From Nitrospirota bacterium (GTDB lineage Bacteria > Nitrospirota > Thermodesulfovibrionia > Thermodesulfovibrionales > Magnetobacteriaceae), in assembly GCA_015233895.1 (NCBI GenBank), contig JADFXG010000012.1, positions 1 through 64,000 of the forward strand: DNA of 64,000 nucleotides. The letters run 5' to 3'. The position numbers and the translations under genes are program-made. This document shows positions 57,399 through 63,808 of the stretch, piece by piece; positions within the stretch are counted from its first letter, which is position 1; each line of letters opens with the position of its first letter. Below the pieces are notes generated by a model. That model was not told the origin of the DNA and did not search any database. It saw only the letters and a list, made by a program, of their open reading frames with translations.

Positions 57399-57448
57399 AA
57401 TAACGCAAGGGGTTGCTAACCCCAATAACGCAAGGGGTTGCTAACCCC
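57399..57448. repeat. Perfect 25 bp tandem repeat with hairpins, yidD-yidC gap
   Basis: Two identical units AATAACGCAAGGGGTTGCTA + ACCCC (57399-57423, 57424-57448). Each forms a GGGGTT-GCT-AACCCC hairpin. They occupy most of the 87 bp between yidD and yidC in the transcribed region. Confidence 0.9.
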
Positions 57449-57462
57449 CAGATTCATTGTTT

Positions 57463-57672
57463 TTATTTAACCGGATCATAGCCGCCGCGGCTTATCGGAT
57501 GACACCTTAAAACCCTCTTTAAAGACATTAACAACCCTGTAAAAGGGCCGTGTTTTTCTATCGCCTCTGCACAGTAATCGGAACAGCTCGGATAGAATCT
57601 GCATGATGACGGTAACAGTGGCGAAAACATTGCCTTATAGAACTGAATAAGCGTAATGAGAATCGTCTTCAT
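57463..57672 (-). CDS. yidD: Membrane protein insertion efficiency factor YidD
   Basis: The 69-residue protein has an amphipathic N-terminal helix and the cysteine core [14 protein letters not shown]-x-S-R-G-G-Y-D-P-V closes it. Overlaps the rnpA frame by 4 bases. It assists YidC-dependent insertion. Confidence 0.95.
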
Positions 57673-57979: not shown

Positions 57980-58123
57980 TTAAGCGCTCAGCTCTTTTCG
58001 TCCTTTTGCCCTTCTTCTTTTGATGACGTTACGGCCTGACGCTGTTGACATCCGCTTTCTGAACCCGTGTTTCCTTTTCCTCTTAATGTTGTGTGGATGA
58101 AATGTCGTATATGCTCCGCCCAT
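57980..58123 (-). CDS. rpmH: Ribosomal protein bL34
   Basis: The 47-codon gene is too short for usual length cut-offs. It reads [22 protein letters not shown] and ends [12 protein letters not shown], the bL34 pattern (H-G-F-R-x-R-M). Ribosome site AGAGGAAG. It overlaps the extended rnpA frame. First gene of rpmH-rnpA-yidD-yidC. Confidence 0.95.
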
Positions 58124-58420: not shown

Positions 58421-59269
58421 TTAGGTCAAGAAGGATTTTAAAGCATCGACAATTCTGTCTGTATCTATGAGATTCATGCAATGTTTCAACTTATCTAAAG
58501 AACATGGTATCGAATAGTTAATGTGGCTGTATCCAGGCTGTATGCATTTGTCGAAGAACTCGCACCTTTCTTCTCCTTTGATATGTACTTGACCGCAATA
58601 TCCATAAATCAAGCTGTCAGTAGGTCCCCAAAGAACTATGGCCGGAACTCCGGCATAATGTGCAGTGTGCATTATAAAATTATCAGACGTGATTACGACA
58701 TCACATTTATTTATAACGTTAATAAGACTGCGAGGAGTCGTTAGACCTATAATTGAGTATGTTCCTTTTATATACTGCTGCCCTAAACGTCCTGCTTGAA
58801 TTATAAGAGTGTCATCGGATTTGATTTTTTCTACGAATTCATGCCACTTGTTGAAATCCATTTCTTTACGAGGAGAATCAGACCATGGGGCTATCAAAAT
58901 ATTCTTATTTCGAAAGGGGATTATTGTATTTAATTCAAAATCGGTAGAAATTATATCTGGGAAATAGAGACGCTCTTCTACAGGAGTTTCAAGATTGAAA
59001 ATTCGAGCCAAAATCTGGAAGGCTCGACGATTCCCTTGTCCAAGAACCTCCTTACTCCAGTAGTCTGTTCCAATAATAAAAGCATCTTTGGGTGGAAATC
59101 CTACGTAAGAAATCGCAGGATGTCCTTTTAAAATACTCAAATATTTTGTCCGCCTAACCAAATTAAACTTTCGGGAAGGCTCTCTTTCGATGTCAAGTTT
59201 CAGGACTCCTGAAATCATAAGAGCATCGCCCAACCCGCCAATTGGGTTAATCCAGATATTTTCAGCCAT
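58421..59269 (-). CDS. GT9-type glycosyltransferase in the peptide-modification cassette
   Basis: From the ATG at 59269 (M-A-E-N-I-W-I-N) the protein has 282 residues; a second ATG 9 bases earlier is possible. It resembles the heptosyltransferase (GT9) fold: N-P-I-G-G-L-G-D-A-L-M at the start, I-L-I-A-P-W-S mid-protein, and V-I-T-S-D-N-F-I-M-H-T-A-H with V-L-W-G-P-T-D near the end. The usual W-x-P-x-x-W motifs are absent. Its place right after the radical SAM genes (gap 13 bases) suggests that it glycosylates the modified peptide rather than LPS. Inference. Confidence 0.7.
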   Translation of the reverse strand: MAENIWINPIGGLGDALMISGVLKLDIEREPSRKFNLVRRTKYLSILKGHPAISYVGFPPKDAFIIGTDYWSKEVLGQGNRRAFQILARIFNLETPVEERLYFPDIISTDFELNTIIPFRNKNILIAPWSDSPRKEMDFNKWHEFVEKIKSDDTLIIQAGRLGQQYIKGTYSIIGLTTPRSLINVINKCDVVITSDNFIMHTAHYAGVPAIVLWGPTDSLIYGYCGQVHIKGEERCEFFDKCIQPGYSHINYSIPCSLDKLKHCMNLIDTDRIVDALKSFLT

Positions 59270-59282
59270 ATCTACCATGAGA

Positions 59283-60380
59283 TTAAAACGTGAGCCCAGT
59301 TATAGGTTCAAAAAATTTTTCTATAAATCTCTTTTTTGATAAACACCATCGGGTTTTATGCACAAAATCTCCGTGTTCGTCATATGAGTCTAAAGGACAT
59401 CCACCGTGGCATATGCTCCAAAAGCGGCAATCCTTACAGTCCTTTTCCAACAGGATTTCATTGCGGCTGATCAACTGTCCACGTTGAGAATCGTAAAGTA
59501 TTTCATGAAGAGACCGGTCGAGTATGTTTCCATAAGAGAGTAAACCCCAGTCAGAGGACCTTCCACATTGGGATGTCTCACCGCGGGGATCAATATTTAC
59601 ATGGTTATAGGCACAATCCCCTGAATCGACACAGGATAGACTGAGAGCATCTCTTTTTGCATTTATCGAAAACGATTTAAATGGTTCGATTTCGTAATAT
59701 ATTTCTTTATATTTCCACCATACGGGAAATATTTCACCTAAAAAATCGGCATATTCATTGGGGGTTATGGCTATGTCTTTAATCTCACTGTCATAGATGA
59801 GCACTTGATTTAAATTAATCCCCCCATTAATGAATAAGTTAGTCAAATAGTAGAATATATCTAAAGGTCTTTCAAGTGATCTTTTTGTAACTACATAGAT
59901 AATTCCTACGTTAAAAGCAGATTCACGTGATAACTTTAGCCCACTGAGAAACATCTTGTTATAAATCTCAGAATCGATATTTTTACCAGGCCCTCTTACG
60001 TTTTGAATAGGGTCGTAACTTGACCCTAAATGACCTATACCCATTTTCTTAAATATTTCCAAAAAATCCTTCGATAAAAGGGTGAGATTCGTTTGAATGT
60101 TGTGATTTATACGGGATAAAGTAGCAGTACAATGCTTTTCCTGTATATCTAAAGCCGTTTTAAAAAAATCCACACCCAAAAGCAGTGGTTCGCCTCCATG
60201 CCACAAAACCGTTATATTATCATCAGGATTCGACATTAAAAAGGTATTTATTCTCGAAAAACACACATCCAGGATTTCATAAGACATTATCGGGGTGGTT
60301 GAAGGCTTTCTACGGACTACGTCGCAGTATATACAATTAGAGTTACATTTTTCCGTTGCTTTTAGAATTATAGTTGCCAT
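59283..60380 (-). CDS. Radical SAM/SPASM enzyme (peptide maturase-like)
   Basis: The 365-residue protein has the radical SAM motif C-x3-C-x2-C at Cys12, Cys16, Cys19 (K-C-N-S-N-C-I-Y-C), G-G-E-P at 62-65, and a full SPASM domain with eight cysteines (250, 256, 272, 315, 318, 324, 328, 346), enough for two auxiliary [4Fe-4S] clusters. This is the anSME/peptide-maturase layout. It overlaps the gene before by 13 bases. It probably changes side chains of the repeat peptide, such as by C-C, C-S or C-O bond formation or oxidation. Reaction unknown. Confidence 0.8.
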   Translation of the reverse strand: MATIILKATEKCNSNCIYCDVVRRKPSTTPIMSYEILDVCFSRINTFLMSNPDDNITVLWHGGEPLLLGVDFFKTALDIQEKHCTATLSRINHNIQTNLTLLSKDFLEIFKKMGIGHLGSSYDPIQNVRGPGKNIDSEIYNKMFLSGLKLSRESAFNVGIIYVVTKRSLERPLDIFYYLTNLFINGGINLNQVLIYDSEIKDIAITPNEYADFLGEIFPVWWKYKEIYYEIEPFKSFSINAKRDALSLSCVDSGDCAYNHVNIDPRGETSQCGRSSDWGLLSYGNILDRSLHEILYDSQRGQLISRNEILLEKDCKDCRFWSICHGGCPLDSYDEHGDFVHKTRWCLSKKRFIEKFFEPITGLTF

Positions 60381-61144
60381 AGTTGGTTTGAATCACTTGT
60401 TCTTTTTTTATAGTAGTATTCTGCGGCTTCCAAAACATCCACAAATAACTTTTGACAACCGTATTTCTGGTTTGATGAGTCGGGAAATTTACCTAAACAT
60501 ATCCGCCAGCCTTGGCAATAAGCGCATCCCTCTGGCTTAAGAAAAAAATCTTCACGAGACAGTAGCCTTTCGTGAAACAGCGATAATATTCCGAAACTGC
60601 TTATATGAAAATATCTTTCGGGGTCGTTAAAATAAACCGCACCATAATCGATATATTTTCCTCGTTCATAATTTAACAATAAATAACCGAAAGGTTCGAT
60701 TTGTCCACGTGAAACCATGCCGTAAACTGCGTAATGCATCAGATCGTTAACCGATTCCCAATCGGGATTTTTACGGTCGAAGACAATTCCACAAGCTATA
60801 CCTAAAGATGATAATATCCTTAACCCTGAAAATGTTTCGCTATCGCTCTCAGGCAAAAAAACTCTAATATTTAGTTTTCTAAACATTTTTATTTTCTTAA
60901 TAAAATCAGAAATCTCACCAATCCCCGGCGTATATAATGCTATCGGTATATCTGCATATTCTTCATAAATCGTCAATGAATCGAGTTTTTTCGGGTAATT
61001 AATCATTATACAATGTAATCTGTTATTTTCATTTACAGCATTGGCAACGGCTATTATTTCGGAAAAAGCATCATATCGTATTACCAGTGTTTCGTTTCTG
61101 AAGCGGTCTATCAGAGCCTTATCGAAGGGGCAGCATTTAATCAT
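60368..61144 (-). CDS. SPASM-like partner protein without radical SAM motif
   Basis: The 258-residue protein follows the first radical SAM gene with no gap (TAA then ATG). It has an alpha/beta barrel-like sequence but no C-x3-C-x2-C at its start. Its C-terminal C-A-Y-C-Q-G-W-R-I-C (207-216) and Cys230 resemble the end of SPASM domains. Radical-SAM-less SPASM partners are known in some peptide systems (e.g. the GeoRSP type). It could bind the leader peptide or carry one auxiliary cluster. No closer family recognised. Confidence 0.6.
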   Translation of the reverse strand: MIKCCPFDKALIDRFRNETLVIRYDAFSEIIAVANAVNENNRLHCIMINYPKKLDSLTIYEEYADIPIALYTPGIGEISDFIKKIKMFRKLNIRVFLPESDSETFSGLRILSSLGIACGIVFDRKNPDWESVNDLMHYAVYGMVSRGQIEPFGYLLLNYERGKYIDYGAVYFNDPERYFHISSFGILSLFHERLLSREDFFLKPEGCAYCQGWRICLGKFPDSSNQKYGCQKLFVDVLEAAEYYYKKRTSDSNQLWQL

Positions 61145-62170
61145 TTATATTTTCCCTGTCTCATCTGAAATTACGTACATTTCATCCAAACGTATAGGGG
61201 GCTCATCCCTAAATGACGATAAGATATGAGCTTTGCATCCTCCATGGCAAAGGCCGTTTTCACGATAAACACAATCGTCACAGCGCTCGAAAATGCCGCA
61301 TGCTTCTGTCTGGATTTTTGAAAACAGATCGTTATAATATTCTATTACTTCACTAAAAGAATTAAATTCAAAGAGAGATTTCTTATGAAAAGACGACAAA
61401 GGAAAACACGGCCATACCTCCATGTCGGGTCCAATATCGATAGCCGGTACGCAGTAAAACCTGAAATCTCCCGTTGTTAACCTGTACATCTGGCCCAGTT
61501 GATTGTCGTTAAGTGCACACATTGGGAAACCACAATCGAAAGCTGGTTTTATCCTTAATTCCTTAAAAATATCAAAACAAGACGATAACCGCTTTATTAT
61601 ATTATCAAAGCTGCCAATATCAACGTAGATATTATCCTTTCCAACAATCCTGTGGGCTAACCCTAAACGAAGTACACGAATCATGCCATACATATTTATT
61701 GCCTGGAACAGGAAATTCATATCAAAATCATTTCTGTAGATATTAAATCCGGCAATCGTACGGTTTCCGAAATGTTCCAGGAATCGCTTTACACTGACTG
61801 TTTCGGCTACAGGAGATAGTGCTGGGTCGTTAAGATTGCAGACAAATGTCAATCTGCCCATTGGAACGTCTTCAAGTGTTTTTATCGATTTACTTAGCTT
61901 ATCTTTAGTCATGATACCGCTTGTAAAAACGCTGACGTCAAACCCACGTTCTATGAGATAAACTACAAAATCGTTAAAGGAAGGGTGCAGTGTAGGCTCC
62001 CCCCCAAGCAAAGACAGATGGCGGTGCCCTGAACACTCAAGCAAATCGGCAATATAGATTAAGTTCTCCCACGACAGCATCTTGTCTGAGGTACTGTTTT
62101 CCATATGTTTTAAAGCAAAACAATACGGACACTTGCGAACGCATTGCTGCGTTAAAAGAACGTTTGCCAT
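61145..62170 (-). CDS. Radical SAM protein with divergent cysteine-rich tail
   Basis: The 341-residue protein has C-V-R-K-C-P-Y-C (Cys10, 14, 17) and G-G-E-P at 56-59. A later set of cysteines (213, 218, 240, 255, 291, 297, 300, 308, 312), including C-D-D-C and C-H-G-G-C, is SPASM/Twitch-like. It is the first enzyme after the precursor gene (68-base gap) and adjoins the SPASM-only gene. With the second radical SAM enzyme it makes a two-maturase cassette. Confidence 0.75.
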   Translation of the reverse strand: MANVLLTQQCVRKCPYCFALKHMENSTSDKMLSWENLIYIADLLECSGHRHLSLLGGEPTLHPSFNDFVVYLIERGFDVSVFTSGIMTKDKLSKSIKTLEDVPMGRLTFVCNLNDPALSPVAETVSVKRFLEHFGNRTIAGFNIYRNDFDMNFLFQAINMYGMIRVLRLGLAHRIVGKDNIYVDIGSFDNIIKRLSSCFDIFKELRIKPAFDCGFPMCALNDNQLGQMYRLTTGDFRFYCVPAIDIGPDMEVWPCFPLSSFHKKSLFEFNSFSEVIEYYNDLFSKIQTEACGIFERCDDCVYRENGLCHGGCKAHILSSFRDEPPIRLDEMYVISDETGKI

Positions 62171-62238
62171 GGTTATCCGATCTCCTACCCTGCCGTTTCA
62201 AAAAATTTTGCATAGATAAACGAATGTTCATCTATTTA

Positions 62239-62589
62239 CTATGAGCAGCTTCTGTACAAAAAGTAACGACCGCTGCTGCTGTAGCAGCTGCTGCTGTTGT
62301 AGGAACCGCTGCTGCTGTAGCCACTGCCGCTGTTGTAGGAACCGCTGTTGTAGGAACCGCTGCTGCTGTAGCGACTGCTGCTGTAGTGACTGCTGGAATA
62401 TGCACTGTTATATGCTGTAAGATTACTATCCTCAAACTGGTGCGCCTCGCCATTCCTATCTGCAACCGAACCTTTCGCTAATTTGGGTAAGCACAGAACA
62501 CTCGATGCTCCTAAAACTCCTAATGCTATACGCTTCAGAGCCTCACGCCTGATCATTTGCTGATCTTCTTTTTTCTTTTTATCGTCCAT
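62239..62589 (-). CDS. Candidate RiPP-like precursor peptide with Tyr/Ser/Gly repeats
   Basis: The ATG at 62589 lies 9 bases after GGAGG and gives 116 residues; a TTG 6 bases earlier is a weaker choice. Residues 1-11 are charged; residues 12-40 (R-R-E-A-L-K then a hydrophobic run, L-P-K-L-A-K-G-S) look like a twin-arginine export signal. The tail from about residue 58 is almost only Tyr, Ser, Gly, Asn: tyrosines at 60, 64, 69, 74, 80, 85, 91, 97, 103, 109, 112, each mostly followed by S-S-S or N-S. No Pfam-type domain recognised. Context suggests it is the substrate of the radical SAM genes downstream. Confidence 0.75.
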   Translation of the reverse strand: MDDKKKKEDQQMIRREALKRIALGVLGASSVLCLPKLAKGSVADRNGEAHQFEDSNLTAYNSAYSSSHYSSSRYSSSGSYNSGSYNSGSGYSSSGSYNSSSCYSSSGRYFLYRSCS

Positions 62590-62619
62590 AGTCAAAAGCC
62601 TCCATTATTATATGATTAT

Positions 62620-62640
62620 TTCTCCTTCCATTAAGGAGAA
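62620..62640 (-). promoter_or_regulatory. Leader hairpin before the precursor gene
   Basis: TTCTCCTT (62620-62627) and AAGGAGAA (62633-62640) form an 8 bp stem with 5-base loop in the transcript, about 25 bases before the ribosome site. Its AAGGAG-like strand could compete with, or mimic, a ribosome site. Role unknown. Confidence 0.5.
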
Positions 62641-62723
62641 TAAGCACTACAGATAAATGTCAATTCAACATGCAGCTTTTAAGGCGACATTCTGTGCCGT
62701 ATTTATGCTACACAGTATGGTAG

Positions 62724-62752
62724 ATTTTACATAAAAATGAAAAGAATGTCAA
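62724..62752 (-). promoter_or_regulatory. Promoter of the peptide cassette
   Basis: On the minus strand TTGACA (62747-62752), 17 bases, then an extended -10 TG-TAAAAT (62724-62729). It places the start near 62717, leaving a leader of about 125 bases. The oppF gene ends upstream at 62840 with a short TATGCAA/TTGCATA hairpin (62817-62833), so the cassette is a separate unit. Confidence 0.75.
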
Positions 62753-62839: not shown

Positions 62840-63808
62840 TCATAACAGATGACACGATGCAAGCCGTCCATTGTGAGTCAGTAGCTGTGGAATCTCCCTT
62901 TTACAGATGTCTGAACACTTAGGGCACCTCGGATGAAACGGACATCCTGATGGTATGTCTATCGGGCTTGGCACATCCAGTGAGGTGACATCAAAAGTCT
63001 TTCTTTGCGGTTTTGAGGTTTTTCGTATCTTTGGCGCTGATTCGATAAGCATCACCGTGTATGGATGCATGGGTGCGCTAAAGAGATCCTCTGATTTAGC
63101 CAGTTCCACAATTTTCCCCAGATACATCACACCGATTGTATCGCTAAAGTATCTGACCACGTTTAAGTCATGGCTGATAAATAAAAAAGAAAGTCCATAA
63201 GCAGCCTTTAAATCTTTCAGCAGGTTAAGCACCTGTGCCTGTATAGAGACATCAAGAGAGGACAGTGGTTCATCGGCAACAATCAGCTCAGGTGACAGCG
63301 CAAGCGCACGCGCTATACAAATCCGCTGACGCTGCCCTCCGCTAAACTCGTGCGGATAGCGATTCATAACGTCTGGCTCAAGACCGACATTATTCAGCAG
63401 CTTTCCCACTCGCTCACGAAACTCAGACCGCGGACAGAGTTTGTGAATCAGGAGCGGCTCGGATAGTGTCGTAAATATCTTCATCCTTGGATTTAACGAT
63501 GCAAACGGATCCTGAAAAATTATTTGCACAGCCCGTCTGTATGCTTTAAGGTTGCCAACTTTGAGGCTAAACACACTTTTTCCTTTAAATAATACATCCC
63601 CTCCGTTAGCCTCAATCAACCTCAAGACCAACCGCGCCACAGTTGACTTACCACATCCGCTCTCTCCAACAAGGGCAAACACCGTGTTTTTCTCTATCGC
63701 AAAATCCACGCCGTCAACAGCTTTGACATATCCGGTTTTTTTCAAAAATCCAGATCCAACGGCATATTGTTTTTTAAGCTCCGTTACTTTTAGCAAAGTT
63801 TCTGTCAT
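62840..63808 (-). CDS. Oligopeptide ABC transporter ATP-binding protein (OppF/DppF type)
   Basis: The 322-residue ATPase has Walker A G-E-S-G-C-G-K-S-T, the signature F-S-G-G-Q-R-Q-R-I-C, Walker B L-I-V-A-D-E-P, and the C-terminal oligopeptide/dipeptide extension C-P-F-H-P-R-C-P. It follows the partner ATPase gene by 7 bases. It powers uptake of peptides or nickel-type substrates. It may be unrelated to the peptide cassette. Confidence 0.9.
   Translation of the reverse strand: MTETLLKVTELKKQYAVGSGFLKKTGYVKAVDGVDFAIEKNTVFALVGESGCGKSTVARLVLRLIEANGGDVLFKGKSVFSLKVGNLKAYRRAVQIIFQDPFASLNPRMKIFTTLSEPLLIHKLCPRSEFRERVGKLLNNVGLEPDVMNRYPHEFSGGQRQRICIARALALSPELIVADEPLSSLDVSIQAQVLNLLKDLKAAYGLSFLFISHDLNVVRYFSDTIGVMYLGKIVELAKSEDLFSAPMHPYTVMLIESAPKIRKTSKPQRKTFDVTSLDVPSPIDIPSGCPFHPRCPKCSDICKREIPQLLTHNGRLASCHLL

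Follow-up and report, generated by a model that had tools for sequence, protein, structure and literature searches.

We analysed a 64,000-nucleotide stretch of a Nitrospirota bacterium contig (positions 1-64,000, hereafter the window), which carries on its minus strand a cassette of five genes encoding, in this order, a Tyr/Ser-rich precursor peptide, a radical S-adenosylmethionine (SAM) protein (rSAM1), a radical-SAM-like partner protein (P3), a second radical SAM protein with a SPASM region (rSAM2) and a glycosyltransferase of family 9 (GT9). The peptide gene (62239..62589) starts with an ATG at 62589, preceded by a ribosome-binding site (AATGGAGG), and encodes 116 amino acids. Its leader, with the motif RREALKRIA and a hydrophobic stretch, is followed by a core that has 11 Tyr in the last 57 residues at a spacing of 3-6, 10 of the 11 with Ser at position +2. 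Downstream lie rSAM1 (61145..62170, 341 aa), which has a CX3CX2C motif at residue 10 and eight more conserved Cys; P3 (60368..61144, 258 aa), which lacks CX3CX2C and carries four invariant C-terminal Cys; rSAM2 (59283..60380, 365 aa), with CX3CX2C at residue 12, which falls in the group of DynA, anaerobic sulfatase maturases and cyclophane formers; and the heptosyltransferase-like GT9 protein (58421..59278, 285 aa), which passes the gathering score of PF01075 (25.5 bits against 22). From peptide to GT9 the intergenic distances are 68, 0, -13 and 4 nt, and no further gene is found between the flanking rpmH (57980-58123) and oligopeptide ABC ATPase (62840-63808) genes. The original prediction, made from the letters of the window, had described such a Tyr-rich peptide of 116 residues followed by four tightly packed genes and no others, two of them for radical SAM proteins and one for a glycosyltransferase, and these points were all borne out.

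Conservation of the five genes

The original prediction had proposed a search for the same five-gene order elsewhere, and this order was found: there are six cassettes in five Nitrospirota genomes, that of the window included. A scan of public genome contigs, run once with one query sequence, identified Nitrospirae bacterium nDJH13bin3 (locus L013) and Nitrospiria bacterium Hainich H41-bin024 (L014), and a search with P3 among 177 genomes of the order gave two additional genomes with the cassette. L013 (contig C67) and L015 are two copies in a single genome (G072), while L014 lies on G213:C23, L016 in G016 and L022 on G223:C10. The order peptide-rSAM1-P3-rSAM2-GT9 is kept in five of the six cassettes; in L016, rSAM2 and GT9 form a single protein of 674 aa and the peptide gene lies just downstream on the opposite strand. 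The genes of the five overlap by 4, 13 and 17-26 nt at nearly all junctions, and the orthologues are 47-62% (rSAM1), 32-45% (P3), 52-58% (rSAM2) and 46-58% (GT9) identical to the proteins of the window.

Profile searches for each of the four enzymes in 396 genomes spread over Nitrospirota returned orthologues of P3, rSAM1, rSAM2 and GT9 from an identical set of four genomes. The separation from other proteins is wide: rSAM2 orthologues scored 659-689 bits against 150 for the best non-cassette protein, rSAM1 orthologues 595-612 bits with the next matches at 239 and 140, and GT9 orthologues 473-506 bits with nothing else under 1e-20. A profile of the peptide, searched in the five genomes, gave exactly one match per cassette and zero orphans. 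Enzymes found mostly apart from such peptides, or a peptide gene absent or out of frame in related genomes, would have told against the original prediction, and neither was seen. Across the six loci the identity matrices of rSAM1, P3 and rSAM2 agree with each other (rho 0.63-0.79), and that of GT9 has no clear congruence with the rest (rho 0.1-0.3, from six loci only). We are highly confident that this five-gene system is real, conserved and inherited together. Radical SAM enzymes and an adjoining small peptide are conserved in it as a unit, as they are in radical SAM systems making ribosomally synthesized and post-translationally modified peptides (RiPPs).

Two closer relatives from the same genus retain the yidC-rnpA-rpmH side of the locus and lack the cassette (in G090 the contig stops 5.4 kb further on), which makes the cassette an accessory one that is patchily distributed. 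A search of plasmids with P3 gave no matches, and one with rSAM2 recovered distant enzymes only (23-26% identity), one of them annotated as DarE.

The Tyr-Xaa-Ser rule and the leader

The six peptides align poorly, and that of the window has no meaningful match in Pfam or NCBIfam. Common to the six are a leader motif around RR-x-A-x-K-R-x-A, with CR instead of RR in L013 and I instead of K in L014, and a core rich in Tyr and Ser. Within the cores, Ser occupies position +2 of 77 of the 106 Tyr, against 35.3 +/- 4.2 in shuffled cores (z = 10), and the excess holds in every single peptide (p at most 0.0012 in each). Among the other offsets from -4 to +5, the next strongest positive is -2 (z = 3.1); at +3, Ser is depleted (z = -3.8). 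In the Tyr that lack Ser at +2, this position is often taken by Tyr or Asp. The codons used for Tyr and Ser are mixed and the core is not a simple DNA repeat, which argues that selection acts on the protein. The peptides carry 11-23 Tyr, in triplets, and that of L016 terminates in a near-perfect run of YSS triplets. The Tyr-Xaa-Ser triplet is thus the conserved element of otherwise divergent peptides. The original prediction had overlooked this spacing rule, and the rule lends good support to its proposal that the repeated Tyr/Ser units are the part of the peptide likely to be modified. An aromatic-Xaa-Xaa motif with a fixed i+2 residue is also a feature of the triceptides, in which a radical SAM/SPASM enzyme bonds the beta-carbon of residue i+2 to the aromatic residue at position i (PMC11002830), and it is present here as Tyr-Xaa-Ser.

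The leader resembles a signal for twin-arginine translocation (Tat), the export route that had been proposed for the product. An RR pair is present in five of the six leaders and TatC is encoded in all five cassette genomes, but the two leaders that match the Tat model TIGR01409 (L022, 16.4 bits; L016, 15.0 bits) stay under its cut-off of 16.7, and the leader of L013 has no RR pair and only a weak hydrophobic stretch. Export of the peptide by Tat is then plausible from the leader sequences, and fails in one of the six peptides. In L014, a lipobox-like site (LSGC) follows the RR signal. The L013 leader loses both the RR pair and a strong hydrophobic stretch yet keeps the A-x-K-R-x-A part, a pattern that hints at recognition of the leader by the enzymes as well.

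Low-complexity Tyr/Ser proteins can be structural, and together with the Tat-like leader this could mean that the peptide is a plain exported structural protein and that the neighbouring enzymes have other targets. Such a reading is most improbable given the one-to-one co-occurrence of the peptide and the four enzymes at six loci, the translational overlaps and the lack of orphans, and given a triplet rule that is typical of a modification site.

The radical SAM proteins, P3 and GT9

Among NCBIfam models, rSAM2 comes closest to DynA (156 bits, cut-off 450), followed by the sulfatase maturase model TIGR03942 (134.6 bits, cut-off 349.45) and DarE (124 bits, cut-off 650), and then by AmcB, GrrM/OscB and YhhB; the cyclophane-former models (GrrM/OscB, YhhB, XyeB, FxsB and AmcB) gave 63-104 bits against cut-offs of 310-450. 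The Cys set for two auxiliary (SPASM) clusters is intact, and the protein aligns over its full length with the structure of an anaerobic sulfatase maturase, its best solved relative (E 5e-28). Its closest relative outside the cassettes (L057) adjoins a small peptide that contains NHSNYSDRHSDHHDHSD, the classic Aro-Xaa-Asn/Asp pattern of triceptides, and that ends in NHSNYSDRHSDHHDHSDCTCFIGGL, a series of aromatic-Xaa-Asp/Asn triplets. Judged by these relationships, rSAM2 is likely the crosslinking enzyme of the system, and the Tyr-Xaa-Ser rule, the affinities of rSAM2 and the neighbour of its L057 relative together point to a triceptide-type chemistry, which would be applied about 10 times per peptide.

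The L057 locus (L057:6043-8170, on G196:C17) is a separate small cluster, composed of a DynA-like radical SAM/SPASM protein (230 bits to DynA, cut-off 450), a 267-aa protein and the small peptide, which with NHSNYSDRHSDHHDHSDCTCF resembles a triceptide precursor of the aromatic-Xaa-Asp/Asn type and has no family match.

The proximity of rSAM2 to sulfatase maturases, its second-best NCBIfam family and the source of its best structural match, allows another reading, in which it would convert Ser into formylglycine-type aldehydes and form no crosslinks, the repeats becoming reactive groups used outside the cell in attachment or self-crosslinking. Sulfatase maturases abstract hydrogen from the beta-carbon of Ser or Cys, and a sulfatase-family gene lies immediately downstream of the L022 cassette. 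We nonetheless hold this reading to be unlikely. The position aligned with Asp277, the catalytic base of the C. perfringens anaerobic sulfatase maturase, is Gly in all six rSAM2 orthologues, and aldehyde formation leaves the requirement for Tyr at i-2 unexplained. Moreover, inspection of the L022 sulfatase-family protein by eye showed no CxPSR-type motif where one would be expected, and the other cassettes have no such gene. The region downstream of the L022 cassette (L022:4816-8710) contains, in this genome only, two genes of the alkaline-phosphatase superfamily, one of the sulfatase family and one for a type I phosphodiesterase.

P3 has no meaningful Pfam or NCBIfam match, and the CX3CX2C motif is absent from all six P3 proteins. 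A structural model of an orthologue, built with six sequences (pLDDT 77, a moderate confidence; pTM 0.78), was compared with the PDB by Foldseek and gave a single match under E 0.001, to the radical SAM/SPASM sactipeptide maturase 5WHY (5WHY_B, E 5e-4, probability 1.00, TM 0.51). The P3 sequence of the window, modelled at pLDDT 58, gave no usable structural match; between the barrel and the C-terminal Cys region it is about 27 residues shorter than each of the five orthologues, and its frame is intact. When the profile of P3 was compared with those of rSAM1 and rSAM2, nothing outside a short Cys stretch was significant. Since its modelled fold is that of a whole radical SAM/SPASM maturase and the SAM-cluster motif is missing, the best description of P3 is a pseudo-radical-SAM/SPASM protein with one four-Cys site, which forms a new family, and not the SPASM-only protein that had been proposed for this gene.

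The resemblance of rSAM1 to known families is almost confined to its first ~100 residues, a viperin/MoaA-like core, and its eight additional conserved Cys have a SPASM-like spacing. It also has a weak similarity to PqqE and to the mycofactocin maturase, and mycofactocin is comparable to the cassette in that a radical SAM/SPASM enzyme and a glycosyltransferase act on a Tyr-containing ribosomal peptide or its Tyr-derived product (PMC7491314). One could then imagine a conversion of the Tyr residues to redox groups of the kind known for mycofactocin or PQQ, both made with a radical SAM enzyme, and an exported product that acts as a redox-active peptide or as the source of a cofactor. We find this very unlikely: mycofactocin arises from a single C-terminal Val-Tyr site without repeats and involves a glycosyltransferase of family GT2, not GT9, and MftB, a protein of the RiPP recognition element (RRE) type, whereas the peptides here carry their many Tyr in triplets and the cassette has no partner oxidoreductase.

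The closest relative of rSAM1 outside the cassettes (239 bits) lies in L055:1-7829 (G055:C219), beside genes for an ABC exporter, an NTP_transf_5 protein, a Kdo/WaaP-type kinase and a B12-binding radical SAM protein and a fragment with SPASM-like cysteines; this is possibly another RiPP cluster, in which no precursor was identified. Consecutive radical SAM proteins beside small or odd proteins occur at two further loci, L056:873-11328 (G300:C63) and L058:6038-9057 (G160:C34), and these look like additional undescribed peptide-modification clusters of the same phylum.

The GT9 gene is found in all six cassettes, and among the 11 GT9 matches of its genome its product scores lowest (24 bits). It matches none of the models of autotransporter heptosyltransferases (TibC/AAH) and, weakly, only those of lipopolysaccharide (LPS) heptosyltransferases. 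A TibC-like iron finger was considered for its four invariant C-terminal Cys and was rejected, as similar Cys occur in ordinary GT9 proteins of that genome. The conservation of GT9 and its fusion to rSAM2 in L016 argue for a sugar step, and the fusion would tie this step to the radical step. A stronger role for the sugar can be envisaged, with the peptide mainly a scaffold for a surface glycopeptide whose Ser residues are heptosylated by GT9 and whose sugar or Tyr residues are separately modified by the radical enzymes. The constant presence of GT9 and its fusion to rSAM2 would agree with this, as would the lipobox-like site behind the RR signal of one peptide and the activity of TibC/AAH, ADP-heptose transferases with four metal-binding Cys that act on Ser-rich repeats of exported proteins (PMC4358343). 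It leaves unexplained, however, why Ser should be tied to position Tyr+2 and to no other; the Cys spacing of GT9 differs from that of TibC/AAH, its Cys motif is generic and the autotransporter models do not recognise it. We consider this scaffold role quite unlikely.

A putative poly-cyclophane pathway

The reading that we favour, and judge probable though by no means secure, is that the cassette encodes a RiPP-type system making a poly-cyclophane with Tyr-Ser crosslinks that is probably glycosylated and exported. We infer the crosslink chemistry, the sugar with its acceptor, and the Tat route as follows. The Tyr-Xaa-Ser triplets of the ribosomal peptide would be the substrate of both radical SAM enzymes. 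rSAM2 would take hydrogen from the beta-carbon of Ser i+2, which would then be bonded to the ring of Tyr i or, less likely, to its phenol oxygen, and the outcome would be a triceptide-like chain of up to about 10 small cyclophane rings. P3, with its radical SAM fold presumably catalytically dead, may present the leader or hold the peptide between the enzymes, and rSAM1 may carry out a second oxidation or crosslink. GT9 would attach one or more sugars, most simply on Ser/carbinol or Tyr hydroxyls. The leader would act as recognition site and usually as Tat export signal (in one case resembling that of a Tat lipoprotein), which would place the product at the cell surface or outside the cell.

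Several observations weigh against this poly-cyclophane scheme. None of the cassette enzymes scores high enough for any of the curated cyclophane-former models, the sulfatase maturases are almost as near to rSAM2 as DynA is, and we found no direct precedent for Ser as the i+2 partner of Tyr. L013 has a degenerate Tat signal, those of other loci fall short of the threshold, and the cassette contains no dedicated gene for a protease, an exporter or an RRE-domain protein. The C-terminal Cys motif of GT9, a possible hint of a protein O-heptosyltransferase, is shared with LPS-type GT9 proteins of the same genome. Finally, there may be relatives in other phyla, as the deep searches covered Nitrospirota and the scan of public genomes had a single query.

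The closest parallels are the triceptides (3-CyFE systems with XncB, OscB/GrrM, MscB, YxdB or YhhB), where a radical SAM/SPASM enzyme is likewise encoded beside a peptide with aromatic triplets in i/i+2 spacing. Among the known pairs are Phe-Ser (MscB), Tyr-Asp (YxdB) and Tyr-Arg (YhhB), so that Ser and Asp both have precedents at i+2 (PMC11002830). The cassette differs in its ~10 or more Tyr-Xaa-Ser copies, its second radical SAM enzyme, P3, GT9 and a Tat-like leader, and its scores lie far under the cut-offs of the cyclophane formers; for this last reason we do not claim it as a triceptide system, despite the likeness in motif and enzyme type. The His-Xaa-Ser system (HxsA-D; Haft and Basu) shares aromatic-Xaa-Ser triplet repeats and two radical SAM enzymes, and rSAM2 is weakly HxsB-like (77 bits, cut-off 370). 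It has His where the cassette has Tyr, and GT9 is an addition of the cassette; HxsC was not among the matches listed for rSAM1 of the window, and P3 of the window has no match in NCBIfam, HxsD included. Dynobactin and darobactin, whose enzymes DynA and DarE provide the closest and third-closest NCBIfam models to rSAM2, are antibiotics made by one radical SAM enzyme from a short core with Trp/His/Tyr crosslinks. Neither family libraries nor open-licence literature yielded the combination of a Tyr-Xaa-Ser peptide, the P3 family and GT9, in line with the original prediction, which could match neither the repeat nor the gene set to a named system.

The cassette might, more tentatively, define a new class of RiPP. 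Its product would be a poly-cyclophane ribbon, exported and glycosylated, with at least 10 Tyr-Ser three-residue rings; the two radical SAM enzymes making it would depend on P3 as a dedicated pseudo-radical-SAM scaffold, and the sugar would come from a GT9 transferase that one lineage has fused to the crosslinking enzyme. If the inferred pathway is right, Tyr-Ser would join the known radical crosslinks, and in a peptide with many sites, useful for studies of processivity and for rigid peptide ribbons; a pseudo-radical-SAM partner family would be new to peptide modification, and a single polypeptide would combine radical SAM chemistry with an enzyme of the heptosyltransferase type. There would also be a concrete and testable product for a phylum that is little studied and mostly uncultured, and the Tyr-Xaa-Ser peptide with the P3 family would provide a gene signature that can be mined elsewhere.

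Some minor features of the window were also inspected. A promoter and a leader hairpin had been proposed upstream of the peptide gene. The promoter stands as a sigma-70-like box (TTGACA-17 nt-TAAAAT, 62724..62752, minus strand) with 11 of 12 consensus matches, but the 15 promoter-like sites of the region are no excess over the 15.9 found in shuffles; the hairpin is not above chance either, the 5' leader RNA folding no better than shuffled sequences (z = -1.07). An Rfam match to isrG at 62272-62387 (24 bits, gathering score 100) was discarded as a chance match to the repeat of the peptide gene. On the other side of the cassette, a short direct repeat around ccccaataacgcaaggggttgctaacccc is found at 57400-57448, between yidC and a small yidD-like open reading frame (57463-57672).

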